Assembly: GCF_023266035.1 (NCBI RefSeq) | Contig: NZ_JAHFRY010000017.1 | Location: forward strand, 1-47,366 | DNA from: Nevskia sp. | GTDB taxonomy: Bacteria; Pseudomonadota; Gammaproteobacteria; Nevskiales; Nevskiaceae | DNA length: 47,366 bases | Direction: 5' to 3' | Shown: positions 3,555 through 22,261 of the stretch, in pieces | How positions within the stretch are numbered: the stretch's first letter is position 1 | How the letters are laid out: each line of letters starts with the position of its first letter | Notes under the pieces: generated by a model | Told to the model about the DNA's origin: nothing | The model's database searches: none | What the model saw: only the letters and a program-made list of their open reading frames with translations | Translations under genes and position numbers: made by a program

Positions 3555-5723
3555 TCAGGAACCCCAGCGCCAGGTCACGCCGATGTGGAAACCGCGGTCC
3601 GGCGCCGGCTCGAAATAGCGGCCGTTGCTGTCGTTGACGATCACCGAACCGGCGTAGCGCTGGTCGAACAGGTTGTAGACGCGCAGGAAGGCTTCGAGGT
3701 CACAGCGGCTGCTCAGCAGGCGGTAGGCGATGCTGGCGTTGACCACCGTGTAGCTCGGTGCCGAATCGCTGGCGACATCGTTGACCGGCACCTCGTCCGA
3801 GTAGCGCGCTTCGAGCGCGCCGGCCCAGCCCGGCCGGCCGCGGTGCCAGCTCAGTTCGGTGTAGACGCTGTTGCTGGCGACACCGGGAATCGGCGTGCCA
3901 TCCGCCACCAGGACCGTGCTGGCGCCGTTGCTGTAGCTGTAAGCCTCGGTGAACTTGGCGTCGAGATGATTCGCGGCGACTTGCAGGCGCAGGTCGGCCG
4001 GCAGGCTGAAGGCAAGACCGAGTTCGGCGCCACGACGGCGCGTGGTGCCGGCGTTCTGGAAGCTGGCGCGGCCGTCGATGGTGGCGGCCGGCACGATCTC
4101 GTCGTCGGCATCGATGTTGAACACCGCCAGCGTCAGCAAGCCGCGCGAGCCGAGCTGCTGCTTCATGCCCAGTTCGACGCTGCGGCTGCGCGAGGCATCG
4201 AGATCGAGATTGAGGCCACCTTCGGCATCGCTGCGGTAGGACAGTTCGTTGAAGGTCGGCGTCTCGAAGCCGATGCCGGCGCTCAAGTAGAACAAGCGCC
4301 CCTCGGCCTGCTCGAAGGCCAGGCTGGCGACCGGCAGGGTCGCCGAGAAATCGGTGGAGCCGCTGTCGTCCGGATTGCCTTCGCGGATGTAGTCGTCCTT
4401 GGACTTGAAGGCGACTCGGCTGTGGCGCACTGCGCCGCTCAGCCGCCAGCGTTCGGACAGCGCGTACTCGGCAAACAGGTATTGATCGAAGTTGTAGAGG
4501 TCGTTGCCCTCGTCGCGGCGCAAGGCACCACGCACACCTAGCGTGTCGCCGATGAAGTTCTCGTAGCCACGGCGACGTTCATCGGCCAGTTGGTACTGTA
4601 GGCCGGCGCTCAAGCTCAGATCGCCCAGCCGCCAGTTGCTGCGGGCATCGAAGCCGACACCGCTGCGGTTGAGATCGACGACACCGCCAGCTCGCGCAGG
4701 GGATGCCTGCGCCGTTTTCGGGATCGACAGGAACTGCTCGATCCGGCGGCCGCTGCCGTAGACGATCAGGTCCCAGTCGGCATTCGGCGACCACGGGCCG
4801 CTGTAGCCCATCGCGGCGCGCCAGTCGTCGGTGTTCTTGCGGGTGTTGTAGGTCTCGGCGGCAGCCGCCACCTGCTTCGGGTTCTGCTCGAACTGCTGCC
4901 GGGTCAGACCCAACGGATCCTGGGCGTCGCCGCCCCAGAGTGCGCCGGCCAGCAAGCGCAGTTGCTGGCCACCGCCGAGGTCGTAACGGGCGTTCAGCGC
5001 GCCGACATTGCGCTGCGCCTTGCTGTGATCGCGATAGCCGTCAGTGTCGTAGCGTTCGAGATCGACCCGGTAGCCGAGCCTCTGATCGGCGACTCGCCCG
5101 CCGATCGCCAGCGCTTCGCGCCAGCTGCCGTTGTTGCCGCCGCTGAAAGTGACTTCGCCACCGAGCTTGTCCGGCGGCGCTGCGCTGTATGCGGCGATCA
5201 CGCCGCCGGAACTGTTGCCGTACTGGTAGGCCATCGGCCCGCGCAGCACTTCGATGCGATCGAGCGAGCCGATCAGCAGGTTCGACACCGCACCCTGCCC
5301 GTCCGGCGCGGTCAGCGGCACGCCGTCGGCGCGTAGCTGGATGCCGCGGACACCGAAGGTCGAACGGGCGCCGAAACCGCGAATCTGGATCTGCAGATCC
5401 TGGGCGCTGTTCTGGCGATCACGGACATCGACGCCGGGCACGCTATTCAGCGTCTCGGCGAGATTGATCTGCGGCCGGCCGCTTTTGAGCATCAATGCAT
5501 CGACGACGCCGACTGCCGCCGCTGTCCGCGCTTCCGTCCGTGGCGTGCCGGTGCCGGTGACGACGACGGCCGGCAGTTGTTCGACGTGCTCGCCCTGTTC
5601 CGTCAGCACTTCATGCGGTACTTCCTCGGCAAACGCCGCGCCGCCGCCTGCCAGCAGTGCGAGCGCGGTGAACGCCGCTGCAGCCCGCGCCGAGCGCTCG
5701 CCGGATTCTTGTTGCTTGTCCAT
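3555..5723 (-). CDS. TonB-dependent outer-membrane receptor, PqqU/YncD-like
   Basis: 722 residues if started at the ATG at 5723 (MDKQQES), chosen because a signal peptide ending near AFA-EE follows directly; the track's longer start adds residues without signal character. A TonB-box/plug region (LPAVVVTGTGTPRTEA, then QDLQIQIRGFGARSTFGVRG, DGVPLTAPDGQG, IEVLRGP, YGNSSGGV) precedes a 22-strand-type barrel ending in FHIGVTWRWGS. The plug motifs resemble, from memory, those of E. coli YncD (PqqU), the TonB-dependent PQQ importer, more than siderophore receptors. The gene is divergent from a cluster containing a PQQ enzyme and shares its operator region, which supports PQQ uptake. A different ligand, such as copper or a siderophore, cannot be excluded. 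Confidence 0.85.
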   Translation of the reverse strand: MDKQQESGERSARAAAAFTALALLAGGGAAFAEEVPHEVLTEQGEHVEQLPAVVVTGTGTPRTEARTAAAVGVVDALMLKSGRPQINLAETLNSVPGVDVRDRQNSAQDLQIQIRGFGARSTFGVRGIQLRADGVPLTAPDGQGAVSNLLIGSLDRIEVLRGPMAYQYGNSSGGVIAAYSAAPPDKLGGEVTFSGGNNGSWREALAIGGRVADQRLGYRVDLERYDTDGYRDHSKAQRNVGALNARYDLGGGQQLRLLAGALWGGDAQDPLGLTRQQFEQNPKQVAAAAETYNTRKNTDDWRAAMGYSGPWSPNADWDLIVYGSGRRIEQFLSIPKTAQASPARAGGVVDLNRSGVGFDARSNWRLGDLSLSAGLQYQLADERRRGYENFIGDTLGVRGALRRDEGNDLYNFDQYLFAEYALSERWRLSGAVRHSRVAFKSKDDYIREGNPDDSGSTDFSATLPVASLAFEQAEGRLFYLSAGIGFETPTFNELSYRSDAEGGLNLDLDASRSRSVELGMKQQLGSRGLLTLAVFNIDADDEIVPAATIDGRASFQNAGTTRRRGAELGLAFSLPADLRLQVAANHLDAKFTEAYSYSNGASTVLVADGTPIPGVASNSVYTELSWHRGRPGWAGALEARYSDEVPVNDVASDSAPSYTVVNASIAYRLLSSRCDLEAFLRVYNLFDQRYAGSVIVNDSNGRYFEPAPDRGFHIGVTWRWGS

Positions 5724-5771
5724 GTCGCCCCGTTTGTTGTTCTGTTTGTTCAGCCGAATGCCTGCCCCTAG

Positions 5772-5787
5772 CGCAAGCGACATGCCG
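5772..5787 (-). promoter_or_regulatory. Candidate sigma-54 (-24/-12) promoter for the TonB receptor
   Basis: On the minus strand the sequence reads CGGCATGTCGCTTGCG. The GG and GC pairs have the exact sigma-54 spacing; GGCA, the following G and TTGC match the consensus TGGCACG-N4-TTGCW, while the first base, the C of CAC and the last base do not. Transcription would begin near 5762, about 40 bp before the ATG at 5723. The match is weaker than the divergent one at 6088-6103. Confidence 0.5.
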
Positions 5788-5908
5788 CCATCGGCTGCCG
5801 CTTCCACATCGCGCTGCACTTCGCCGGAATGTCGAGCCGCAGCGCGGACTTGCGCCTGCGCAGCTCGACACTCCGCGACATCTCCCCCGCGCAGCATGTG
5901 GCCTTCGT

Positions 5909-5990
5909 CGCGACAGCGCCTGCGACAACTGTCGCAGCCCGCGTCTGCGACATCGCGACAAGTGCCTGCAGCAGCGACACCTGTCGCTTT
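5909..5990. promoter_or_regulatory. Palindromic operator/enhancer array between divergent sigma-54 promoters
   Basis: Two perfect 7-bp-arm palindromes share one architecture: TGCGACA-AC-TGTCGCA (5921-5936) and AGCGACA-CC-TGTCGCT (5973-5988). Extra half sites lie nearby (TCGCGACA around 5909, TGCGACATCGCGACA at 5946-5960). The two palindrome starts are 52 bp apart, close to five helical turns. They lie about 100-180 bp upstream of each candidate sigma-54 promoter, the usual distance for activator binding. The AcoR-type activator encoded at 17287-19275 is the obvious candidate ligand; this link is inference. Confidence 0.7.
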
Positions 5991-6087
5991 CGAAGGCGAC
6001 CACTGTCTCGCCTCACGTCCCGAATAAATTCATATCCGACAAGCACTTGTCAGCGGCCGAACCGACTGTCACTGCCGCCGTCAGCGA

Positions 6088-6103
6088 TGGCACATCGGTT
6101 GCC
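6088..6103 (+). promoter_or_regulatory. Sigma-54 (-24/-12) promoter for the channel-AldA-Rieske-PQQ ADH set
   Basis: TGGCACATCGGTTGCC matches the sigma-54 consensus TGGCACG-N4-TTGCW at all ten of the TGGCAC and TTGC positions, with correct spacing. Transcription would start near 6113, giving a leader of roughly 74 bases before the ATG at 6187. The palindromic operators lie 100-167 bp upstream. Confidence 0.72.
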
Positions 6104-6126
6104 CTTTTATGACGCCGCCAGACGGC

Positions 6127-6156
6127 ACGCCCCTAGGTTCTTGAACTCAGGGGCGT
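6127..6156. repeat. Leader hairpin before the outer-membrane channel gene
   Basis: ACGCCCCT and AGGGGCGT form a perfect 8-bp stem with a 14-base loop inside the predicted leader. The strong ribosome-binding site AAGGAGGAG follows about 15 bases after the stem, so the hairpin does not cover it. It may protect the 5' end of the transcript. Confidence 0.5.
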
Positions 6157-6186
6157 CCATAAAAAACGTGAAGGAGGAGCAACACG

Positions 6187-7038
6187 ATGTCCAGAATTCT
6201 CAACCGCCGGTTGTCGCGGCTTTCCACTGCAATCGCCACGGCCTTGCTGTCGCTGTGTGCCTCGGGTTCCGCTACGGCGATCACTTTCGACGTCATCGGC
6301 CCAGGCGAGTACGACCTGCCGGTGGACTTCAAACCGTTCAACGTCTTCGTCCAGTACGCCACCGTGCAGGACAACGAAAAGGTTCGCGATGCCAACGGCA
6401 AGAAGGTCGACGGCGATGGCAGCCAGCAGATCGTCGGACTGTCGAAGTACGTGCGCTTCTGGTCGCCGGACTGGAACCGGAAGATCGGCCTCGCCTACGA
6501 AATCATCGTGCCCGAGATCGGCGTCCGCAACGAGGCGGGCGGCTCCTATGTCGGCGGCCTCGGCGATCCGCTGACCGGCTTCGCGGCCTGGTATCGGCCG
6601 ACCGATAGCTCGACCTTCGGCATCCAGTCTTTCCTCGTCGTGCCGGTCGGCAATGAGTCGGTCGCCGACACCAACTGGAAGAACCTGACCAGCCTGTTGT
6701 GGAACTGGAAGGGCGGCAAGTTCCAGGTCACCGGCAACGGCGGCCTGGTCTGGCAGGGCGAGCGCACCAACGGCGTCAAGCCAGCGGTGAACTGGCATAC
6801 CAACAACCGCTTCGGTTACCGCATCAGCAAGTACCTCGAACCGTTCTTGGGCCTGGACTACGAGTACGCCGCTGCGAAGAACGGCGCGCCGAAGAGCTGG
6901 GCTTTCGATGCCGGTGCCGGCGTGGTGCTGCACACCTTCGAGAACCAGTCGATCGCGCTGCGCTACTCGACCACCGTCGACGGCGCCAGCCATTCCCAGA
7001 ACGACAGCTTCAACCTCAAGTACGTCTACGTCTGGTGA
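6187..7038 (+). CDS. Outer-membrane channel/transporter, phenol MetA-pathway-type (COG4313-like)
   Basis: 283 residues with a clear Sec signal peptide (about residues 1-30, ending SATA). The mature protein has alternating hydrophobic/polar strands typical of a small beta-barrel and a C-terminal aromatic strand (SFNLKYVYVW). Segments such as LTGFAAWYRP and the strand order resemble the family annotated as putative MetA-pathway phenol degradation or transporter (PF13557), often found beside hydrocarbon or alcohol catabolic genes. The ribosome-binding site is AAGGAGGAG. As first gene after the sigma-54 promoter it is likely to admit the substrate to the periplasm; the substrate is not shown by the sequence. 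Confidence 0.82.
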   Translation: MSRILNRRLSRLSTAIATALLSLCASGSATAITFDVIGPGEYDLPVDFKPFNVFVQYATVQDNEKVRDANGKKVDGDGSQQIVGLSKYVRFWSPDWNRKIGLAYEIIVPEIGVRNEAGGSYVGGLGDPLTGFAAWYRPTDSSTFGIQSFLVVPVGNESVADTNWKNLTSLLWNWKGGKFQVTGNGGLVWQGERTNGVKPAVNWHTNNRFGYRISKYLEPFLGLDYEYAAAKNGAPKSWAFDAGAGVVLHTFENQSIALRYSTTVDGASHSQNDSFNLKYVYVW

Positions 7039-7168: not shown

Positions 7169-8605
7169 ATGTCCAGCGAGTATCAGAACTACATCGACGG
7201 CCGTTTCGTCGCCCATCGCGGCGGCACCATCGAAGTCCACAACCCCGCCACCCAGGAGCTGATCGCCCGGGTGCCGGACGCCGGTGCCGACGTCGTCGAC
7301 GAAGCCGTGGCCGCCGCCCGGCGCGCGCAGCCGGCCTGGGAAAAGCTGCCGGCGATCCAGCGTGCCGGCTACCTGCGCAAGATCTCCGCGAAGCTGCGCG
7401 AGAACGTCGAGATGCTGGCGACGATCATCGCCGGCGAGCAGGGCAAGGTCATGCCGCTGGCGCGGGTCGAGGTGAACTTCACCGCCGACTACATCGACTA
7501 CATGGCGGAATGGGCGCGCCGCCTCGATGGCGAGGTGCTGACCAGCGACAGAGTCGGCGAGCACATCTTCCTGCTGCGCAAGCCGCTGGGCGTGGCCGCC
7601 GGCATCCTGCCGTGGAATTTCCCGTTCTTCCTGATCGCCCGGAAGATGGCGCCGGCGCTGATCACCGGCAACACCGTGGTGATCAAGCCCAGCGAGGAAA
7701 CGCCGCTCAACGCCTTCGCGTTCACCAAGCTGCTGGCCGAGACCGATCTGCCGCCCGGCGTGTTCAACCTGGTCTGCGGCAGTGGTGCCAGCGTTGGCGC
7801 AGCGCTGACCGCGCACAAGGGCATCAACCTGATCACCTTCACCGGCAGCGTCGGCACCGGCATCCGCATCATGCAGGCTGCGGCTCCGAACCTGACGCGA
7901 GTCAATCTCGAACTCGGCGGCAAGGCGCCGTCGATCGTGCTCAACGATGCCGATCTCGATCTGGCCGCGAAAGCTCTGGTCGCCTCGCGGGTGATCAATA
8001 CCGGGCAGGTCTGCAACTGCGTCGAGCGGGTCTACGTGCAGCGTGGCATCGCCGAAGCACTGACCGAAAAGCTGGTGAAGCGGATGGCGGCGACGCGCTT
8101 CGGCGATCCGCTGGCCGACGAGACGCTGGACATGGGCCCGCTGGTCAACCAGGTCGGATTAGCAAAGGTCGAGCAGCTGGTCGACAGCGCTCGAGCCGCA
8201 GGTGCCGAAGTGCTCACCGGCGGCACGCGTGCCGATCTGCCGCGCGGCTATCACTACCTGCCGACCGTGGTCGCCGGCTGCACGTCCGACATGGCGATCA
8301 TGCGTGACGAGATCTTCGGCCCGGTGCTGCCGCTGCAGATCGTCGACGACCTCGACGAAGCCATCGCCCGCGCCAACGACTCCGACTACGGGCTCACCTC
8401 GTCGATCTTCACGCGCGACATCAACGCCGCGATGAAGGCCGTCCGCGAACTGCAGTTCGGCGAGACCTACATCAACCGCGAGCACTTCGAAGCGATGCAG
8501 GGCTTCCACGCCGGCCGCAAGAAATCCGGCATCGGCGGCGCCGACGGCCATCACGGCCTGCTCGAGTTCACCGAAACCCACGTCGTCTATCTGCAGACGT
8601 CCTGA
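7169..8605 (+). CDS. aldA: NAD-dependent (lact)aldehyde dehydrogenase, AldA-like
   Basis: 478 residues, nearly the length of E. coli AldA (479), to which it is close throughout by recall: FTADYIDYMAEWARR, GILPWNFPFFLIARKMAPAL, SRVINTGQVCNC, GETYINREHFEAMQGFHAG, KSGIGGADG and a VVYLQ ending. The catalytic Cys lies in GQVCNC (near residue 283), the general-base Glu in LELGGKAP (near 249) and the oxyanion Asn in PWNFP. There is no signal peptide, so it acts in the cytoplasm. AldA oxidises lactaldehyde to lactate and glycolaldehyde to glycolate with NAD. The place between a channel and a PQQ alcohol dehydrogenase suggests it takes the aldehyde from that enzyme. Substrate choice within the family is uncertain. 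Confidence 0.92.
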   Translation: MSSEYQNYIDGRFVAHRGGTIEVHNPATQELIARVPDAGADVVDEAVAAARRAQPAWEKLPAIQRAGYLRKISAKLRENVEMLATIIAGEQGKVMPLARVEVNFTADYIDYMAEWARRLDGEVLTSDRVGEHIFLLRKPLGVAAGILPWNFPFFLIARKMAPALITGNTVVIKPSEETPLNAFAFTKLLAETDLPPGVFNLVCGSGASVGAALTAHKGINLITFTGSVGTGIRIMQAAAPNLTRVNLELGGKAPSIVLNDADLDLAAKALVASRVINTGQVCNCVERVYVQRGIAEALTEKLVKRMAATRFGDPLADETLDMGPLVNQVGLAKVEQLVDSARAAGAEVLTGGTRADLPRGYHYLPTVVAGCTSDMAIMRDEIFGPVLPLQIVDDLDEAIARANDSDYGLTSSIFTRDINAAMKAVRELQFGETYINREHFEAMQGFHAGRKKSGIGGADGHHGLLEFTETHVVYLQTS

Positions 8606-8622
8606 ACCGAGGACTCATCACG

Positions 8623-9237
8623 ATGAGCAAACCGAGCCCACACGATGCCTGCGCCTGCTGCGCGACTGACCTGCCGACCGACAGCGGTCGCCGCCAGATG
8701 CTGACCGGCGCACTGAGCCTGGCAGCACTGGCCGCCACCAGCCTGCCAGCGATGGCACAGGACGCCACCGCTGCCCGCAGCCTGAAACCGCAGCCCGGCG
8801 ACAAGCTGGCTTTCATGCTCGGCCCGAAGGCCGGCCAGGAAATCCTGCCGGCGGATATCCAGTTCGGCGAGCCGCCGACCCTGGCCTATCCGCTGGATCC
8901 GACCACCGGCAAGGCGCTGGTAGCCAAGGCCAGCATGTTGACCGTCATCCGCCTGAAGCCGGACGACCTCAAGCCTGCCAGTGCTGCGAATTCCGCCGAC
9001 GGCATCGTCGCCTACTCGTCGCTGTGCACGCACTACGGCTGCCCGATCACCACCTTGCATCCGAGCCAGACGCAGATCGTCTGCAACTGCCACGGCTCGG
9101 TGTTCAACGCCGCCGATCGCGGCGTGGTCAGCAATGGCCCGGCTCAGCGTCGGCTGGCCATGTTGCCGCTGGCGATCAAGGACGGCGCGGTGGTGGTCAC
9201 CGGCAAGTTCGATGGCCCTCTGGGCCCGCCGACCTGA
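8623..9237 (+). CDS. Tat-exported Rieske [2Fe-2S] protein
   Basis: 204 residues. A twin-arginine signal (SGRRQMLTG, hydrophobic stretch, SLPAMA) is preceded by a small Cys cluster, CACCATD. The Rieske domain has both cluster motifs: CTHYGC (Cys-X-His) and CNCHGS. It resembles the small Rieske subunits of bc1 or arsenite oxidase rather than ring-hydroxylating oxygenase components, and no oxygenase subunit is near. It lies between aldA (17-bp gap) and the PQQ dehydrogenase (56-bp gap) on one strand. The likely role is to accept electrons from the quinoprotein in the periplasm, where a cytochrome c would normally serve; that is inference from context. Because the signal is uncleaved in many Rieske proteins, it may be membrane-anchored. 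Confidence 0.88.
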   Translation: MSKPSPHDACACCATDLPTDSGRRQMLTGALSLAALAATSLPAMAQDATAARSLKPQPGDKLAFMLGPKAGQEILPADIQFGEPPTLAYPLDPTTGKALVAKASMLTVIRLKPDDLKPASAANSADGIVAYSSLCTHYGCPITTLHPSQTQIVCNCHGSVFNAADRGVVSNGPAQRRLAMLPLAIKDGAVVVTGKFDGPLGPPT

Positions 9238-9293: not shown

Positions 9294-11039
9294 ATGAAAG
9301 TGTCATTGATCACGGCTGCGTTCACCGCAGTCATCACATCCGCAGCATTCGCTGCTGCGCCCGTCACCACACTGCCCGACTACAAGCTGGTCACCGATGC
9401 CCGGCTGACCAATCCGGAGCCAGAGAACTGGCTGCTGACCAAGGGCAATTACGAGGGCTGGAGCTACAGCAAGCTCAATCAGATCACCACCGACAACGTG
9501 GCCAAGCTGAAGCCCGTCTGGTCATCGGCCACCGGCGTCAACTCCGGCCACGAGGCGCCGGCGATCGTCAACGGCGAATACATGTTCGTGGCCACGCCGC
9601 ACAACCACGTGTTCGCCTACAACGCCAAGACCGGCAAGCCGCTGTGGCACTTCCAGCGCGAGGTGCCGGAAGGCATCGGCGCCCTGCATCGCACCAACCG
9701 CGGCGTGTCGCTGTGGAAGGACAAGGTCTATGTCGGCAGTGTCGACTGCATGCTCAGCGCGCTCGATGCCAAGACCGGCAAACTGCTCTGGGATGCGCAG
9801 GTCTGCGACTGGGAAACCGAGAGCGCCTACATCACCTCCGCACCACTGATCGTCAAGGGCAAGGTGCTGATCGGCCCGTCCGGTGGCGAGTTCGGCGTGC
9901 GCGGCTTCCTCAAGGCCTTCGATGCCGAAACCGGCAAGCTGGCCTGGACCCGTTACGCGGTGCCGGCGCCGGGCGACAAGGGCTCGGAAACCTGGCCGCA
10001 GACCGGCGAGTGGAAGGACGCCTGGAAGAAAGGTGGCGGCACCATGTGGATGCCGGGCAATTACGACTCGAAGAACGACGTCATCTACTGGGGCGTCGGC
10101 AACGGTGCGCCCTGGCTGGGCGATCAGCGTCCGGGCGACAACCTGTATCTGGCTTCGGTGCTCGCGCTCGATCCGGCCACCGGCGACATCAAGAGTCACT
10201 TCCAGTACCACTGGAATGACTCCTGGGACTGGGCCGGCATGAACGCGCCGACCCTGGTCGAGTACACCAAGAACGGCAAGAAAGTGACCGGCATGGTCAG
10301 CGCCCAGCGCAACGGCCGCATCTACTGGCTGGACCGCGACGCCAAGGGCAAGATCACCTACAACAAGTCCGAGCCCTACGTCACCAACACGGTGTTCACC
10401 AGCATTGATCCGAAGACCGGCCGCCCGACCTACAACAAGGACGCCAAGCCGCACACCAACGAAACCCACACCTACTGCCCGAGCCTCTGGGGCGGCAAGG
10501 ACTGGCCGTTCGAAGCCTACAACCCGGACACCGGGATGCTCTACATCCCGTACAACGACAACCACTGCCTGACCCTCACCGGCATGATCCAGCCAGTCAT
10601 CCCCGGCACCTGGTCAGCGGGTGTCGACATCAACAAGCTCGACCTGTCGGTGAAGAAGGGCTTCGACCACATCGGCGGCATCCAGGCCTGGGACATCAAC
10701 ACCGGCAAGGAAGTCTGGCGCGAGAAGTACCCGCATTCGTGGAACTGGGGCTCGATCCTGACCACCGCCGGCGGCGTGCTGTTCGCCGGTGGCACCAACG
10801 ACAAGATGTTCCGCGCCTACGACGCCAAGTCCGGCAAGCTGCTGTGGGAGTTCCCCACCCCGTCCGGCATCATCTCGCCGCCCAGCAGCTTCTCGATCGA
10901 CGGCAAGCAGTACATCGCCGTGGTGTCCGGCTACGGCGTCGATGCCCAGTGGATCCAGGGAAAGATGCATGGCCTGGCTGGCTGGGACGAGAAGGTTCCC
11001 GAAGGCGGCAGCGTCTGGGTGTTTGCACTCGGCAACTGA
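9294..11039 (+). CDS. PQQ-dependent alcohol dehydrogenase (type I quinoprotein)
   Basis: 581 residues from the ATG at 9294, chosen for the ribosome-binding site AGGAGGAG ten bases upstream and a Sec signal (MKVSLITAAFTAVITSAAFAA); the track's longer frame is not needed. At least five tryptophan-docking-type repeats (for example AYNAKTGKPLW, ALDAKTGKLLW, AYDAKSGKLLW) show the eight-bladed propeller. Calcium ligands fit the family: Glu in GEFGVRG (near 199), Asn in GNGAPW (near 270), catalytic Asp312 in SWDWAGMN. Position +2 is Ala, not Asp, so it looks calcium-type rather than lanthanide-type. The vicinal Cys-Cys normally before NRG is replaced (ALHRTNRG). There is no C-terminal cytochrome c domain. 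Substrate unknown; a diol is inferred from aldA and lut genes. Confidence 0.93.
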   Translation: MKVSLITAAFTAVITSAAFAAAPVTTLPDYKLVTDARLTNPEPENWLLTKGNYEGWSYSKLNQITTDNVAKLKPVWSSATGVNSGHEAPAIVNGEYMFVATPHNHVFAYNAKTGKPLWHFQREVPEGIGALHRTNRGVSLWKDKVYVGSVDCMLSALDAKTGKLLWDAQVCDWETESAYITSAPLIVKGKVLIGPSGGEFGVRGFLKAFDAETGKLAWTRYAVPAPGDKGSETWPQTGEWKDAWKKGGGTMWMPGNYDSKNDVIYWGVGNGAPWLGDQRPGDNLYLASVLALDPATGDIKSHFQYHWNDSWDWAGMNAPTLVEYTKNGKKVTGMVSAQRNGRIYWLDRDAKGKITYNKSEPYVTNTVFTSIDPKTGRPTYNKDAKPHTNETHTYCPSLWGGKDWPFEAYNPDTGMLYIPYNDNHCLTLTGMIQPVIPGTWSAGVDINKLDLSVKKGFDHIGGIQAWDINTGKEVWREKYPHSWNWGSILTTAGGVLFAGGTNDKMFRAYDAKSGKLLWEFPTPSGIISPPSSFSIDGKQYIAVVSGYGVDAQWIQGKMHGLAGWDEKVPEGGSVWVFALGN

Positions 11040-11180: not shown

Positions 11181-11705
11181 ATGACTGCATCTCAATTTTT
11201 CGCGCCAGCTGCACGCAGCGCGGCCATGCTCGTCCTGCTCGCAGGAATCTGTTTCAGCGATGGCGCCAACGCGCTGGAAAGAAAGCCGGTCCTCTCGCTG
11301 GAAGCCGCCCGCAAGATCGCCGCGGGCTGCATCGCCAAGGCCATCGAGATGGGCTGGAAGATGAACATCGCCATCGTCGACAGCGGCGCGAATCCGGTCC
11401 TGTTCGAACGCATGGACGACGCCGCACTCGGCTCCATCGAACACGCCGAACTCAAGTCGGTGCATTCAGCAAAGATGGGCGGCTCCACCCGCATGTTCGG
11501 CGAGCTGACCTGGGGCAAGGACAACAAGGGCGGCGTGCTGCCGGGCCTCGCCACGCTACCCGGCTTCGTCACCTTCCCCGGCGGCCTGCCGATCAAGGCG
11601 GGTGAAGCACTGGTTGGCGGCGTCGGAGTCAGCGGCAGCATGCCGGACAACGACGAGATCTGTGCTCAGGCTGGGCTTGATGCGGCGAAGAGTCTGCTGA
11701 AGTAA
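11181..11705 (+). CDS. DUF336/HbpS-like secreted heme-binding family protein
   Basis: 174 residues from the ATG at 11181, chosen because a signal peptide (to about residue 33, DGANA) follows it; the track's longer start at 11052 runs through the hairpin. The domain matches the GlcG/HbpS/PduO C-terminal family (DUF336, PF03928): LEAARKIAAGCIAKA, NIAIVDSGANPVLFERMDDA, then PGLATLPGFVTFPGGLPI and GGVGVSG. Members bind heme or corrinoids and recur next to PQQ alcohol dehydrogenases and glycolate or propanediol genes. It probably works in the periplasm with the quinoprotein, but its exact role is not known. Confidence 0.85.
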   Translation: MTASQFFAPAARSAAMLVLLAGICFSDGANALERKPVLSLEAARKIAAGCIAKAIEMGWKMNIAIVDSGANPVLFERMDDAALGSIEHAELKSVHSAKMGGSTRMFGELTWGKDNKGGVLPGLATLPGFVTFPGGLPIKAGEALVGGVGVSGSMPDNDEICAQAGLDAAKSLLK

Positions 11706-12410: not shown

Positions 12411-15017
12411 TCAGACCAGCGTCTCGGCTACGGGCGCTTTGCCTTTCACCGCGCTTTCCACCTGGAGTGATGCCAGGAACGCGGCAATCTGCTCGGTGAT
12501 CTCGGCGGCCCGCGGCACATAGCGGGACATGTAGAACACCGCGTGAACGAGTCCCTCCAGGCGATGGATCCGCACGGGAACGCCAGCCGCCTGCAGCGCA
12601 CGGCCATAGTCCTCGCCTTCGTCGCAGGTCGGATCGCACTCCGCAGACAGGATCAACGCGGGTGCAAGACCGGCCAGCGACTTCGCACGTCCCGGGGACG
12701 CCAGTGGCGAAGCTGCCTTGGCCATATCGCCGAGGTAAGCGCCCCACATGCCCAGCGCAGCGATGGTCTTCAACACCGGCCCGTTGGCGTACTCGACTCT
12801 CGAGCGCGTGTTCGCTTCAGCGTCGATGGTCGGATAGATCAGCACCTGGCCGCTCAGGGCAGGACCGCCTTCATCGCGCGCGCGCTGAGCGGCGACGGCG
12901 GCGAGCGCGCCGCCTGCACTCTCGCCCATCACGACGAGTCGCTTGGGATCGCCGCCGTGCTTGGCGATGTTTGCAGCCGTCCACTTCAGGGCCGCGAAAC
13001 TGTCGTCCGTCGCCGCCGGAAATGGCGCTTCGGGTGCCAGCCGGTAACTCGGTGCGACCACGATCGCCTGCAGATCGTCGGCCATGCAGCCGCAGACGCC
13101 GGCACACATGTCGATGCTGCCGGCGATGAAGCCGCCGCCGTGCAGATAGACGATCACCGGCAGCGGCCCTTTCGCGTTCCGGGGTCGATAGATGTAGACC
13201 GGCCGCGCGTCGGCAGGACCGGGATAGGTGGTCTCGATCCGTTCGACGGACGCCGGCACCGGCTTCTGCAGACCGATGAAGCTCTCGACCACGGCGCGTG
13301 CCTCTTCGACCGAGCAATCCTCGAGCGACTTGGTTTCCTCCATCAACATGGCGCCCACCACGAGTGCCGCACCAGCGTCGATGCGGACCATCGGTGGCAC
13401 CCGGTCCGCCGGTGCACCGTCGATGCGGAAGCCGGCATAGCCGTGGTCCACCACGTCCCTGCACATTTCGCGGTACAGCGGTGCGGAGCCAGCAAACATG
13501 AACACGCTGCGCGGCTTGCCGGGAATGTTGGCGCCCATGTACCAGGAGTTGGCGCGCGGGAACAGCGTCATGTTGAGGGTGTCGCTGACCATCTTGAACC
13601 AGGCCGTTTCCGCAGCTTCGTCGGCCTCGAAGGTCTTCGCACCCTTGTCGAGCACGTGCTGAATCGCGTTGGCCGCGAAGTCGACGTGATCCTCGATCGC
13701 CAGCGGGTTGTTGTAGAGGATGACGGCGCTGGTCGGACCGGTGATGGTGAACAGGTTGGGGAACCCGGCGCTCGCGATGCCGAGGTAGGTCCGGGGACCA
13801 TGCGCCCAGCGATCCTGCAGACGCAGTCCGTCGCGGCCCACGATGTTGAGCGCGAACAGTGCGCCGGTCACGGCGTCGAAACCGGTGGCCAGCGCGATCG
13901 CATCGAACTCGTGCTCCTTGCCGTTGATGCGGATGCCTTTCTCGGTCACTTCCTCGAGCGGCGTGGCGCGCAGGTCGACCAAGCTGACGTTTTCGCGATT
14001 GAAAGTTTCGTAGTAATCCTCTTCGACGGTCGGCCGCTTGGTTGCATAAGGATGATCCGTGGGACACAGGATCTCGGCCAGCACAGGGTTCTTGACCTTC
14101 TCGCGGATCTTCCCGCGTACGTATTCCGCCACGGTTGCGTTGGCGCGCTCGTCGGTCAGCAGGTCGCCGTAGCTCGAGACCAGCAGGTTGAAGCCGCCCC
14201 TTTCCCACAGCTCGTCGTAGCGCGCACGCCGCGTTTCCGGGCTGACCTCCAGCGCGCTGGGTGCGGGGTTCTGGTAGGGCACGCCGAGGAAGCGCAGCCG
14301 CGACTTGCCGCGCAGCTGCTGCGCGTTCTGCGCGTTCCACTGCTGCTGCTCGGGAGTGAGCTTCTTGTTGTGCATCGCTACCGCGTAGTTCGGCGTGCGC
14401 TGGAACACGGTGAGCTGCGCGGCCTGTTTGGCGATCTGCGGAATCAGCTGGATGCCGCTCGATCCGGTGCCGATGACGCCAACGCGTTTGCCGGTGAAGT
14501 CGACGCCCTCGTGCGGCCAGCTGCCGGTGAAGTACACCGGCCCCTTGTAGCGCTCGAAGCCCGGAAATTCGGCCTGCGACTTGGGCACCGTCACGTTGCC
14601 GCTGCCGGCAACGACGAAGCGCGCGGAGATGGTCTCTCCGGTGTCCGTGCTCACGGTCCAGCGCGCATCGGCTTCGCTCCAGACCATCGAGGTGACGCGC
14701 CGTCCGAACCGGAAGGAGCGGCGCAGATCGAACTTGTCCGCCACGAATTCGAGGTAACGCAGGATCTCCGGCTGACCGGCGTAGCGCTCGGACCATTGCC
14801 ACTCGCGCTGGATCTCGTCGGAGAACGAATACGAGTAGTGGACCGATTCGATGTCGCAACGCGCACCGGGATAACGGTTCCAGTACCAGGTGCCCCCCAC
14901 GCCGCCCGCGGCGTCGAGCCCGAGGACATTGAGTCCAAGATCGTCACGCAGGCGGTGGGTGGCGTACAGACCGGCGAAGCCGGCTCCGATGACGACGACG
15001 TCGAACTGCTGGTTCAT
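12411..15017 (-). CDS. Baeyer-Villiger-type monooxygenase fused to HSL-family esterase
   Basis: 868 residues. The N-terminal ~540 are a flavoprotein monooxygenase: FAD motif GAGFAGL (11-17), GGTWYWNRYPGARCD, and NADPH motif GTGSSG (183-188). The Baeyer-Villiger fingerprint position reads YKGPVYFTGSWP (157-168), so its key His is Phe163. The C-terminal ~300 are an HSL-type alpha/beta hydrolase with HGGG (626-629), nucleophile Ser700 in GESAGG, Asp795 in ECDPT and His825 in GLVHAVF, all present. The join invites a ketone-to-ester-to-acid-plus-alcohol sequence in one chain. The ribosome-binding site GAGGAG precedes the ATG. The gene is divergent from an AraC-type regulator with a repeat operator between them. 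The substrate is unknown; a steroid, cyclic or aryl ketone is possible. Confidence 0.92.
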   Translation of the reverse strand: MNQQFDVVVIGAGFAGLYATHRLRDDLGLNVLGLDAAGGVGGTWYWNRYPGARCDIESVHYSYSFSDEIQREWQWSERYAGQPEILRYLEFVADKFDLRRSFRFGRRVTSMVWSEADARWTVSTDTGETISARFVVAGSGNVTVPKSQAEFPGFERYKGPVYFTGSWPHEGVDFTGKRVGVIGTGSSGIQLIPQIAKQAAQLTVFQRTPNYAVAMHNKKLTPEQQQWNAQNAQQLRGKSRLRFLGVPYQNPAPSALEVSPETRRARYDELWERGGFNLLVSSYGDLLTDERANATVAEYVRGKIREKVKNPVLAEILCPTDHPYATKRPTVEEDYYETFNRENVSLVDLRATPLEEVTEKGIRINGKEHEFDAIALATGFDAVTGALFALNIVGRDGLRLQDRWAHGPRTYLGIASAGFPNLFTITGPTSAVILYNNPLAIEDHVDFAANAIQHVLDKGAKTFEADEAAETAWFKMVSDTLNMTLFPRANSWYMGANIPGKPRSVFMFAGSAPLYREMCRDVVDHGYAGFRIDGAPADRVPPMVRIDAGAALVVGAMLMEETKSLEDCSVEEARAVVESFIGLQKPVPASVERIETTYPGPADARPVYIYRPRNAKGPLPVIVYLHGGGFIAGSIDMCAGVCGCMADDLQAIVVAPSYRLAPEAPFPAATDDSFAALKWTAANIAKHGGDPKRLVVMGESAGGALAAVAAQRARDEGGPALSGQVLIYPTIDAEANTRSRVEYANGPVLKTIAALGMWGAYLGDMAKAASPLASPGRAKSLAGLAPALILSAECDPTCDEGEDYGRALQAAGVPVRIHRLEGLVHAVFYMSRYVPRAAEITEQIAAFLASLQVESAVKGKAPVAETLV

Positions 15018-15150: not shown

Positions 15151-16191
15151 ATGGCCGGACCCTTGATCCGCAGCGTCATCCTGAGCGGCGCAGCCGAGAA
15201 GATTCGCCAGTACGGACGCAAGCCTGGTGCGATCGCCCGCAAGGCAGGCATTCCGATGGCCGCCCTGTCCGACCCGGACCTGTTGGTGAGCGGCCGCGCC
15301 GTGATGACGTTCTTCGAACTGGTGGCCGCGACCTGCCGGCGCCGAACCTTCGGCCTGGAAATGTCGGCAGGCGCCCACCTGGGCGCGGTGATCGGACCGC
15401 TGTGGGTGTTGCTGCGCAACGCGCTGACCGTCGAGCAGATGTGCGTCGACATGGCGAAGCACTTTTACCTCTACAGCAGCGCCGCGGTGATGACCTATCA
15501 GCCGACGAAATCCGGCGGCTTCCTCCACTGGTCGGCCGCCACCGGGTCCGGCGAGAGCGAAGTCCAGATGTCGGAGTTCGCGGTCGCCACGATACTCGGC
15601 GAAATCCGCATGCACGGGCCGCCGGGGTGGACGCCGCCGGGCGTGCATTTCCGGCATGAAGCGCCTGCGGACCTGCAGCTGCACCGGCGGATCTTCGGCC
15701 CCCATCTGCACTTCAACGGCGAACACAACGCCATCGAACTGGATGCCGCGATCCTGCGCCGCCCCCATTCGGCCGCCGAGCCGCATGTGCGATCCCTCGT
15801 GCACAAGGTGCTGCGCGACGACGAGGGATCCTCGGCTGCTCCGATCGAACTTCAGGTGGAGGGTTTGATCCGCGCGCTGCTGCCTTACGGATCGTGCTCC
15901 GCAGACGACGTGAGCCAAGCCCTGGGGATTTCGACGCGCACCTTGCAATTGCACTTGAACCAGGCGGGACAAAGCTTCCGCTCGATCAAGGACTCCGTTC
16001 GCGCGGATCTCGCTCAGAAATACCTGAAGCATTCCGGTCTGAACGTCACCCAGGTGGCGGCGCGACTCGGATACGGCGACCCGACCTCGCTGAGCCGTTC
16101 CTTCCGCCGCTGGCACGGCACTTCCGCGCGCAGTCAGCAACGTGTTCTGAAAATGAACGCGAAGATTCTTCCGCGACCCGCCCCGCAATGA
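15151..16191 (+). CDS. AraC-family regulator (arabinose-binding-domain, OruR-like)
   Basis: 346 residues. The N-terminal ~210 residues resemble the PF12625 sensor domain used by OruR/ArgR-like AraC regulators; the C-terminal part has two helix-turn-helix units (DDVSQALGISTRTLQLHLNQAG, then NVTQVAARLGYGDPTSLSRSFRRWHG). It is divergent from the monooxygenase-esterase gene and the direct-repeat operator lies between them, so it probably controls that operon and itself. The effector is unknown and may be the ketone substrate. Confidence 0.92.
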   Translation: MAGPLIRSVILSGAAEKIRQYGRKPGAIARKAGIPMAALSDPDLLVSGRAVMTFFELVAATCRRRTFGLEMSAGAHLGAVIGPLWVLLRNALTVEQMCVDMAKHFYLYSSAAVMTYQPTKSGGFLHWSAATGSGESEVQMSEFAVATILGEIRMHGPPGWTPPGVHFRHEAPADLQLHRRIFGPHLHFNGEHNAIELDAAILRRPHSAAEPHVRSLVHKVLRDDEGSSAAPIELQVEGLIRALLPYGSCSADDVSQALGISTRTLQLHLNQAGQSFRSIKDSVRADLAQKYLKHSGLNVTQVAARLGYGDPTSLSRSFRRWHGTSARSQQRVLKMNAKILPRPAPQ

Positions 16192-17286: not shown

Positions 17287-19275
<1,989 letters not shown>

Positions 19276-19335: not shown

Positions 19336-20787
19336 TTAATTCTGTTTGCGCTGCCGCTCCGCCAGCAGATCACGCAAGGATTTCGACGCAGGCTTCAATG
19401 GCGCCCTCGCCTGCGTCCATCCTCCCTGCCAGGGCGGCGTCAGCCAGTTCAGGCGCGCGGCAAACCAGACCAGCAGCCGATAGAGCGCCGGATGGCTGTA
19501 GAGCAACCGCCAGGCTTTCCAGGCGAGCGCTTCGGCCAGTTGCCGCACTTCGCCCTGCCCGCGCAGCGCCTGCTGCGGAGGCGTGGCCGATTGGGCGACG
19601 CTGTGGCGGCCGGCCTCGCGCAGGCGCATCAGCATGTCCGGGATCGGAATGCCCACCGGGCAGACTTCGCCGCAGGCACCGCAGAGGCTGGATGCGGTCG
19701 GCAGATGCCGTGTTTCCTTCAGGTTCTGCAGATGTGGCGAAATGATGGCGCCGATCGGCCCCGGATACGTGGTGCCGTAGCTCAGCCCGCCGACCCGCGT
19801 GTAGACCGGGCAGTGATTCATGCAGGCGCCGCAGCGAATGCACTGCAGGGTTGCCCGGAAGCGTTCCTCGCGATAAGCCTGGGTGCGGCCGTTGTCGAGC
19901 AGGATCAGGTGCATCTCGCGCGGGCCATCCTTCTCGCCTGCACGGCGTGGGCCGGTGATCACGTTGAGATAGGTGGTGATCGCCTGGCCGGTGGCCGAGC
20001 GGGTCAGCAGCGCGAACAAAGGTGCTACGTGCTCCAGCTTCTCGATGACCTTCTCGATGCCGGTGATGGCGATGTGCACGTCCGGCACCGAGGTGCAGAG
20101 CCGGCCATTGCCTTCGTTCTCGACCAGCACCAGCGAGCCAGTCTCGGCAACCATGAAGTTGACGCCGGACACGCCGATGCGCGCCGCCGAGAATTTGTCG
20201 CGCAGTGCGCGCCGGCCGATGGCGATCAGTTCGTTGACGTCATCGGTGAGCGGCGCGCCCTTGATGTGCTCGTGGAAAATCTCGGCGACATCCTGCTTGG
20301 TCTTGTGGATGGCCGGCATGATGATGTGGCTGGGGCGATCGCCATCGAGCTGCAGGATGTACTCGCCCATGTCGGTCTCGACGCACTCGATGCCCTGCGC
20401 CGCCATCTCGTGATTCAGCTCGATTTCCTCGCTGACCATCGACTTGCCCTTGACCATCAGGCTGGCGTCGTGGCGCCGCGCCAGGTCGAGGAAGATGCGA
20501 TTGGCGTCGGCCGCCGTCTCCGCCCAATGCACCTGCACGCCGAGCGAAGTGAGCTTGTTTTCCAGCTGCTCCAGCAGTTCCGGCAGCTTCGACAATGCCT
20601 GCTGACGCACCGCTTCGCCGACCTTGCGCAGGCGCTCGAAAGCCTCGAGATCCGGGAACTGACTCGCACGGCGATCGATCAGGAAATCCATCGCGCCGGT
20701 GAAGCTGTCGCGCAGCTTCGGGTCCTTCAGCGCGGCGCGGGCATTGGCCTGGAAATCGGCCAGCTTGATGGCCATTGCGCCACTCAT
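19336..20787 (-). CDS. lutB: L-lactate oxidation iron-sulfur protein LutB
   Basis: 483 residues from the ATG at 20787, which overlaps the lutC stop as ATGA; the track start at 20937 lies inside lutC. A LUD domain (KGKSMVSEEIELNHEM, GVSGVNFMVAETGSL) is followed by two 4Fe-4S motifs, CIRCGACMNHC and CGACGEVCP. LutABC (LldEFG, YkgEFG) oxidises L-lactate to pyruvate at the inner face of the membrane; LutB is thought to be the large redox subunit. The order here is lutA-lutC-lutB. The C-terminal ~80 residues are hydrophobic/basic as in the family. Confidence 0.95.
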   Translation of the reverse strand: MSGAMAIKLADFQANARAALKDPKLRDSFTGAMDFLIDRRASQFPDLEAFERLRKVGEAVRQQALSKLPELLEQLENKLTSLGVQVHWAETAADANRIFLDLARRHDASLMVKGKSMVSEEIELNHEMAAQGIECVETDMGEYILQLDGDRPSHIIMPAIHKTKQDVAEIFHEHIKGAPLTDDVNELIAIGRRALRDKFSAARIGVSGVNFMVAETGSLVLVENEGNGRLCTSVPDVHIAITGIEKVIEKLEHVAPLFALLTRSATGQAITTYLNVITGPRRAGEKDGPREMHLILLDNGRTQAYREERFRATLQCIRCGACMNHCPVYTRVGGLSYGTTYPGPIGAIISPHLQNLKETRHLPTASSLCGACGEVCPVGIPIPDMLMRLREAGRHSVAQSATPPQQALRGQGEVRQLAEALAWKAWRLLYSHPALYRLLVWFAARLNWLTPPWQGGWTQARAPLKPASKSLRDLLAERQRKQN

Positions 20788-21470
20788 GAGCGGACTCCGT
20801 CCTGCACCAGCAGGATCACCAGTTCGCGCGGCCCGTGGGCGCCGTAGACCAGCATGCGCTGGATGTCCGCAGTCTTCGACGGACCGGTGATGGTCAGCAG
20901 ATTGCTCGGCATCGCACTCGCCCAGCCGTAGTGCCACATCGCCGAGAGCAGCGAGTCCTGCAGCTGGCTTTCATGCAGCAGCGCGATATGCAGCGGCGGC
21001 ACCAGCGACAGCGTGCGCGGCTCCGCGATGGTCGGCATCACCAGCAGGCTGCCGCTGGCGGCAAGGCCGCCGAGCGTGGTGGTGATGCCAGCGTCAGCGG
21101 CGAACAGCTCGGGCTTGAGTGCGGCGATCTCGCGATCGAACCAGCGCAGTTGCTGCGGCGGCACGCAGGCCGCCAGCGTGGCGGCGATCTCGCTGCCAGG
21201 CCCGGCAAACAACTGCCGTGGCGCCCGCGCGCGCAGCAATGCCTGCAGGGCTTCAGGCCAGTCGGCCTGCGTGGTTTCGATGACTTCGGCACGCCAGCTT
21301 CGGGCGTGGCGGATGAAGCGCTCGGTGCGTGTCTCCCCGACCGGATCGGCCAGCAGTGGCAACAGAGCAGCGGAGACATCCAGCGGCGTGTTCTGCGGAT
21401 CACGCGTTGCCGCGCGCAGACGTTCGAAGATCGCGCTGCGCGCACGCAGCGACTCGGCGGACGCGCTCAC
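20784..21470 (-). CDS. lutC: L-lactate oxidation protein LutC (LUD domain)
   Basis: 228 residues from a GTG at 21470 that overlaps the lutA stop as GTGA; the ATG start in the track lies inside lutA. The LUD/DUF162 domain is recognised by FAADAGITTTLGGLAASGSLLV, the PPLHIALL strand and the TGPSKTADIQRMLVYGAHGP ending. LutC is the third subunit needed for L-lactate use; its catalytic role is not well defined. Overlaps on both sides show strict translational coupling in the lutACB operon. Confidence 0.93.
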   Translation of the reverse strand: MSASAESLRARSAIFERLRAATRDPQNTPLDVSAALLPLLADPVGETRTERFIRHARSWRAEVIETTQADWPEALQALLRARAPRQLFAGPGSEIAATLAACVPPQQLRWFDREIAALKPELFAADAGITTTLGGLAASGSLLVMPTIAEPRTLSLVPPLHIALLHESQLQDSLLSAMWHYGWASAMPSNLLTITGPSKTADIQRMLVYGAHGPRELVILLVQDGVRS

Positions 21471-22261
21471 TGAGCTTCCCCGCCGTCGAGGCGTTCGCGG
21501 ATCAGGCTGGCGATGTGCTGGCCGCGCATCAGGTCGCGGCGCTTCTTGAGCATCAGGTTCAGACTCAGCAGGCAGCCGCAATCGGCGCTGACCATCGCGT
21601 CGCAATCGGTGGCGCGGATGGCGTCGAGCTTGTCGGAGGTCATCGCCGCGGAAATTTCCGGATGCTTGACCGAGAAGGTGCCGCCGAAACCGCAGCACTC
21701 GGATTCATGGGCGTGCTCCACCAGTTCCACGCCGGGCAGACGGCTCAGCAGTTCGCGCCCGCATTCCAGGGTGCCCATCTCGCGGCGCGCGCTGCAGGCC
21801 GTGTGCAGCGCCACGCGCAGCGGGCGGCGACTGGCGCTGTCCAGTTTCAGATCGGCGACGTTCAACAGGTAATCGGTGAATTCGATGGTCCGCGCGGAGA
21901 TCGCTTCGGCCTTCGCCAGCTTCACGGGATCATTCGCGAACAGCTTCGGCCAGTGATGCTTGAGCATGCCGCCGCAGGAACCGGAGGGCACGACGATCGG
22001 CCAGGGCTCCGGAAACAGATCGAGCTGCGCGGCGGCCACCTTGGCCGCTTCCTCGGGAAAGCCGGTGGTGTACGCCGGCTGGCCGCAGCAGGTCTGCCGG
22101 ACCGGAAAGTGCACCTGCACACCGCTGCGCTCGAGCACGTCGATGGCATCGAAACCGGCCTCCGGCGCGAACATGTCGATGACGCAGGTGGCGAAGAAAT
22201 AGACGTTCCGTTTGCCGTCGCGGGCAGCGGATGCGGGTGTGGATGCGGGTGTTGGGGACAT
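21467..22261 (-). CDS. lutA: L-lactate oxidation protein LutA (CCG domain)
   Basis: 264 residues, with the ribosome-binding site AGGAGGAGG close to the ATG. Two cysteine-rich CCG repeats are visible: CCGQPAY with SGSCGGML, and [17 protein letters not shown] with [10 protein letters not shown], as in heterodisulfide-reductase-like LutA/LldE/YkgE. The first residues after the ATG carry a small Ala/Thr/Ser/Pro-rich repeat (TPASTPASA). It is the first gene of lutACB, divergent from a GntR-type regulator. Substrate specificity for L-lactate is assigned by family; glycolate oxidation would need glcDEF, which is not here. Confidence 0.95.

Follow-up and report, generated by a model that had tools for sequence, protein, structure and literature searches.

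Outward-facing sigma-54 promoters around paired palindromes: a candidate shared enhancer for PQQ-dependent alcohol oxidation and PQQ import in Nevskia sp.

In a 47,366-bp stretch of Nevskia sp. DNA (hereafter the window), a 463-bp intergenic region probably serves as a shared enhancer, through which one sigma-54 activator would co-induce a pyrroloquinoline quinone (PQQ)-dependent alcohol-oxidation enzyme set and the import of PQQ, a reading to which we assign a probability of roughly 85%. Since the two promoters face outward around two like palindromes, one regulator probably turns on enzyme and importer together. A preliminary description of the window had suggested such a single activator for a receptor and a PQQ gene set, and the suggestion is now supported by conservation, operon specificity, and activator co-occurrence. 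The sites, their spacing and conservation, the gene identities, and the co-occurrence can all be read from the sequence itself.

Elements of the intergenic region

The following elements were delineated in the 463-bp gap between pqqU and the channel gene, the promoters and palindromes being read directly from the sequence:

5773..5787, minus strand (read 5787-5773): sigma-54 promoter CGGCATGTCGCTTGC of pqqU, transcription start predicted at ~5761
5921..5936, no strand: UAS1, TGCGACAACTGTCGCA, a putative site with palindrome GCGACANNTGTCGC at 5922-5935
5974..5987, no strand: UAS2, GCGACACCTGTCGC, a putative site consisting of palindrome GCGACANNTGTCGC
6088..6102, plus strand: sigma-54 promoter TGGCACATCGGTTGC of the alcohol-oxidation operon, transcription start predicted at ~6114
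6127..6156, plus strand: hairpin (inverted repeat) in the predicted 5' leader, leader RNA fold z = -3.3

The plus promoter reads TGGCAC-N5-TTGC and the minus promoter CGGCAT-N5-TTGC, the latter with two departures from consensus. The GG-to-GC spacing is exact at both elements and they face outward, as the preliminary description had stated, while its end point for the plus element (6103) was one base too long and is corrected here to 6102. On both strands of the 47,366 bp, the degenerate pattern YGGCAYNNNNNTTGC (YGGCAYN5TTGC) matched only these two promoters, with 0.68 matches expected, and the plus site was the sole match in the window to TGGCACN5TTGC at 0 mismatches. No sigma-70-like promoter was found within 5700-6220.

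The two GCGACA-N2-TGTCGC palindromes, previously described as about five helical turns apart, are exact copies with a start-to-start distance of 52 bp, i.e., 4.95 turns at 10.5 bp, and these are the only two exact copies of GCGACANNTGTCGC in the whole 4.5-Mb genome. When two mismatches were allowed, the count in the window did not rise above chance, so that the exact pair is what matters. GCGACA half-sites are also clustered, with 8 starts in the 113 bp from 5875 and never more than 2 elsewhere, and when the intergenic sequence was put through 20,000 dinucleotide shuffles, it never yielded an outward sigma-54 pair or a pair of palindromes. Measured from the predicted plus start, the two UAS are centred at 133 and 185 bp; measured from the minus start, also predicted, they are centred at 167 and 219 bp. 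These distances fall inside the 100–250 bp upstream of the sigma-54 site where most inverted-repeat UAS of Clostridiales are located, according to the accessible portion of PMC6615313, with binding itself only predicted here. A third element at 5996-6009 was considered and not called a UAS because it is poorly conserved (5/14 columns).

Genes on the two arms

The genes bearing on this reading are:

3555..5723, minus strand: PqqU-type TonB-dependent receptor, ATG start at 5723
6187..7038, plus strand: predicted outer-membrane channel, COG4313-like (AlphaFold2 model, best PDB match 4rl8)
7169..8605, plus strand: AldA-like aldehyde (lactaldehyde/glycolaldehyde) dehydrogenase (NF007497, 737 bits, cut-off 500)
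8623..9237, plus strand: Rieske 2Fe-2S protein with a Tat-like signal (PF00355)
9294..11039, plus strand: PQQ-dependent alcohol dehydrogenase, methanol/ethanol family (TIGR03075, 518 bits, above the cut-off of 480), start at ATG 9294
11181..11705, plus strand: HbpS-like protein (PF03928), likely operon end
17287..19275, minus strand: GAF-AAA+-Fis sigma-54 activator of the AcoR type (PF01590, PF00158, PF02954), the proposed UAS1/UAS2 binder
19336..22261, minus strand: lutA, lutC, and lutB-like genes, named from ORF sequence, upstream of the activator on the same strand; we take these to be lactate-utilisation genes

The receptor had been described simply as a TonB receptor, which holds and can be refined to a PqqU-type PQQ importer. 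NCBIfam NF041535 (PqqU) was the best family by far, at 621 bits over residues 60-718; this lies below the 1200-bit equivalog cut-off, so that the protein is PqqU-type by its residues and not a curated equivalog. Among solved structures, 9c4o, the pyrroloquinoline quinone transporter of E. coli, is the nearest (E 3e-145); its Y99, K274, R304, R365, and R536 align with F123, K296, R326, R384, and R552. The receptor product thereby carries the PqqU signature given in the accessible portion of PMC12124388, namely an aromatic residue at Y99 and arginines at R304 and R365. With a PqqU-type importer on one side, the two arms thus encode an enzyme and the uptake of its cofactor. Counting against co-induction, pqqE is present in this genome, and import is therefore not its sole source of PQQ. 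A host without PQQ synthesis had been expected, an idea rejected on the same ground, while no pqqE match over the cut-off was obtained in Pseudoxanthomonas sp. PXM01.

On the plus arm, the channel had no Pfam match, and its model (pLDDT 69) aligned to 4rl8, of the COG4313 fold, with a TM score of 0.72. The Rieske gene adjoins the PQQ dehydrogenase gene in the window's own genome (G000), in genomes G002, G010, and G005, and at loci L064 and L160. We saw no gene for cytochrome c among those of the operon, and the Rieske protein is a possible, unusual electron acceptor of the PQQ dehydrogenase. Between operon and activator, on the opposite strand, a flavin monooxygenase fused to an alpha/beta hydrolase is encoded at 12411-15017; this fusion is kept in G002 and G010 and was not seen at the G005 locus.

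Conservation and company of the motif

The region was compared across four genomes, i.e., that of the window and the congeners G002, G005, and G010. Both promoters, both palindromes, and the 52-bp UAS spacing are kept in all three congeners, UAS1 being intact in G002 and G005 and carrying one mismatch in G010; the palindromes upstream of orthologues, whose loss the preliminary description would have read as a refutation, are thus conserved. Whereas 48% of gap columns are invariant overall, the proportion reaches 18/18 in the minus promoter block (5771-5788), 13/14 in UAS2, 12/14 in UAS1, and 12/16 in the plus promoter. The distance from UAS2 to the plus promoter is 114 bp in all four genomes, and the rest of the spacer has drifted and changed length. 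The distance from UAS1 to the minus promoter varies and is shorter in G005; enhancers tolerate such variation in enhancer-promoter distance. In G010 (L009/L164), minus promoter and pqqU are separated by ~165 bp of inserted DNA that has CTAG at its ends and short inverted termini, and that looks like a small mobile element. Directly after the predicted plus start, 23/26 columns are invariant. Conservation is strong in the predicted plus-transcript leader (6109-6186), which is able to form a hairpin; this hairpin is weaker in relatives and replaced by a different stem in G005. No Rfam family matched in the window.

We then searched for a combined pattern (palindrome, 95–155 bp, TGGCAYN5TTGC) in other genomes, as the preliminary description had recommended for the palindrome. 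Of the order's 85 genomes, 6 contained it, and in each it preceded the same channel/aldehyde-dehydrogenase operon; one of them is G062, whose operon was confirmed by a later check. It was absent from the 368 other class genomes that were sampled (of 369, the window's own alone matched), and a reversed-pattern control gave zero matches, so that across the 85 and 368 genomes the arrangement was found solely before the orthologous operon. Further exact palindromes of G002 and G010, and two of the three in G049, have no sigma-54 site within ~2 kb and are therefore probably chance occurrences.

Beyond the divergent layout, pqqU is associated with the motif in two further arrangements. In Pseudoxanthomonas sp. 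PXM01 (L064), a single strand carries, in order, lutA, lutC, lutB, activator, palindrome, TGGCACGCGGCTTGC, channel, aldehyde dehydrogenase, Rieske, PQQ alcohol dehydrogenase, and pqqU. In G027, the pqqU gene is found away from the operon and is preceded by palindromes of its own and by a strong sigma-54 promoter, TGGCACGGGGCTTGC. Among 30 pqqU loci of the order, palindromes and a sigma-54 site were located upstream only in the five genomes that have both an activator orthologue and the operon. This tracking of the motif by pqqU in three layouts is, at the sequence level, the strongest sign of purposeful co-control.

As first described, the minus promoter is the weaker match. No other stretch of the region is better conserved, however, and the conservation extends to the spacer, which we count against our reading since an invariant spacer is not needed for sigma-54 alone. 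It is thus conceivable, if unlikely, that the plus promoter alone is sigma-54 dependent, with the minus match conserved for another reason, e.g., an extra TGTCGC half-site, which the invariant block does contain, and with pqqU read from elsewhere, as the insert separating site and gene in G010 might suggest. Against this, the minus site has exact -24/-12 geometry, no sigma-70 match lies in the region around it, the identical spacer is seen at L144 and L150 within the sigma-54 sites TGGCATGTCGCTTGC, and in G027, where pqqU is separate from the operon, palindromes accompany a strong sigma-54 site before the gene.

For the regulator, the AcoR-type sigma-54 activator that the preliminary description had placed in the window carries GAF, AAA+, and Fis domains. 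Orthologues with at least 60% identity occur in all five compared genomes with a close operon, and also in G061 and G067; the activator adjoins the operon in L064, and the order of lut genes and activator is the same in G002, G005, G027, G067, G061, and L064. Three rpoN genes above cut-off are present in the window's genome (contigs C98, C42, and C100). Several observations count against the assignment: the activator lies 11 kb from the gap in the window; it has GTFTGA for the canonical GAFTGA, as does its whole clade, a variant for which a literature search returned no match; G067 has the activator with no palindrome near it; and in G062, an 86%-complete genome with both site and operon, the search found no orthologue of the activator. 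Recognition-helix type appears to follow motif type, with CRAT[IV]YR paired with TGCGACA-N2-TGTCGCA sites, [CA]R[ST]T[ILV]YR with TGCAACA half-sites, and, in a G027 paralogue with helix SRNTLYRKLKR, a palindrome TGTCACGCGCGCGTGACA before its sigma-54 site. As this covers about eleven related loci, the pairing is suggestive and not proof. In Clostridiales, the UAS motif likewise follows the DNA-binding domain of the enhancer-binding protein (PMC6615313, accessible portion).

Several AcoR-type paralogues in the genome and an AraC-type gene nearby offer other candidates, so the palindromes could bind either such a paralogue or the QhpR-like AraC protein encoded at 15151-16191. We consider this quite improbable: no copy of the AraC gene was found in the vicinity of the operon in G005, G027, or L064, the paralogues have another helix (SRNTLYRKLKR) and the one in G027 goes with the different palindrome TGTCACGCGCGCGTGACA, and the proposed activator alone keeps company with the palindrome sites. 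Finally, the view that the elements came together by chance in GC-rich DNA, where two-mismatch versions are indeed common, can be given almost no credence, being already contradicted by the conservation tests and by an exact pair that is unique in the genome, conserved, and operon-specific among 453 genomes.

Proposed mechanism and relation to known systems

Under co-induction by the 17287-19275 activator, the 463-bp gap would function as an enhancer common to two sigma-54 promoters that point outward. The activator would bind UAS1 and UAS2 (TGCGACANNTGTCGCA type), its GAF domain sensing an alcohol, diol, or aldehyde, and DNA looping would bring it to RNA polymerase-sigma-54 held at both promoters, so that both transcripts would start. 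The plus transcript would yield the channel, PQQ alcohol dehydrogenase, Rieske protein, and aldehyde dehydrogenase, and the minus transcript the PqqU importer; both being started together, apo-enzyme and cofactor would be supplied together. Binding, looping, activation, inducer, start sites, and co-expression are all steps that we infer from sequence. A guess from the AldA-like and lut gene content is a substrate of the 1,2-propanediol type, i.e., a short diol that would be converted to lactaldehyde, then lactate, and passed to the lut products. More tentatively, the system may be a narrow sigma-54 regulon matching apo-enzyme with cofactor, in which a single activator that senses alcohol would switch on a PQQ dehydrogenase whose electrons go to a Rieske protein and not to cytochrome c, and would simultaneously open PQQ scavenging even in a PQQ maker.

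Parts of this scheme have precedents. The PQQ alcohol dehydrogenase gene exaA of Azospirillum brasilense is likewise a quinoprotein alcohol dehydrogenase gene driven by sigma-54 (Singh 2017, cited in PMC12826043 and PMC6115532), but with a LuxR-type regulator in place of the GAF-AAA-Fis protein found here, and the accessible passages of the citing texts make no mention of pqqU co-control. BmoR of Thauera butanivorans is a sigma-54 activator of the bmo operon that answers C2–C8 alcohols (PMC8784404), comparable to the alcohol sensing proposed here, whereas its target is an alkane monooxygenase and includes no PQQ importer. Regulons of Fis-type enhancer-binding proteins in Clostridiales share the inverted-repeat UAS, often several per target, and differ in sequence, hosts, and targets, with no divergent or intergenic layout mentioned in the accessible portion of PMC6615313. 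In the Pseudomonas ped/exa cluster, PQQ alcohol dehydrogenases and an outer-membrane porin are similarly joined and expressed together (PMC12997753), although control is by AgmR and PedS2/PedR2, and PqqU is not mentioned. The porin of that cluster, PP_2662, is thought to pass short-chain alcohols, a role that, by analogy, would suit the COG4313-like channel.

E. coli PqqU shares receptor family and PQQ-contact residues with the protein described here; the accessible portion of PMC12124388 describes no control by a sigma-54 activator, reports little sign of co-regulation with PQQ synthesis, and finds pqqU co-located with pqq biosynthesis genes in only four Burkholderiales. Our literature search, which covered a minority of subscription papers, found no description of PqqU under such sigma-54 control, and querying the letters of the palindrome gave noise alone. 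Given that sigma-54 control of PQQ alcohol dehydrogenases and alcohol-responsive activators are already known, the mechanism is ordinary, while novelty appears to lie in the regulon, in its motif, and in the tie between an enzyme and the import of its cofactor. If true, this would provide a regulatory logic for PQQ scavenging, with import switched on along with the enzyme by one enhancer, and would supply a binding motif that can be tested. For a branch of AcoR-type activators of which few targets are known, it may also provide a recognition code (CRAT vs R[ST]T).
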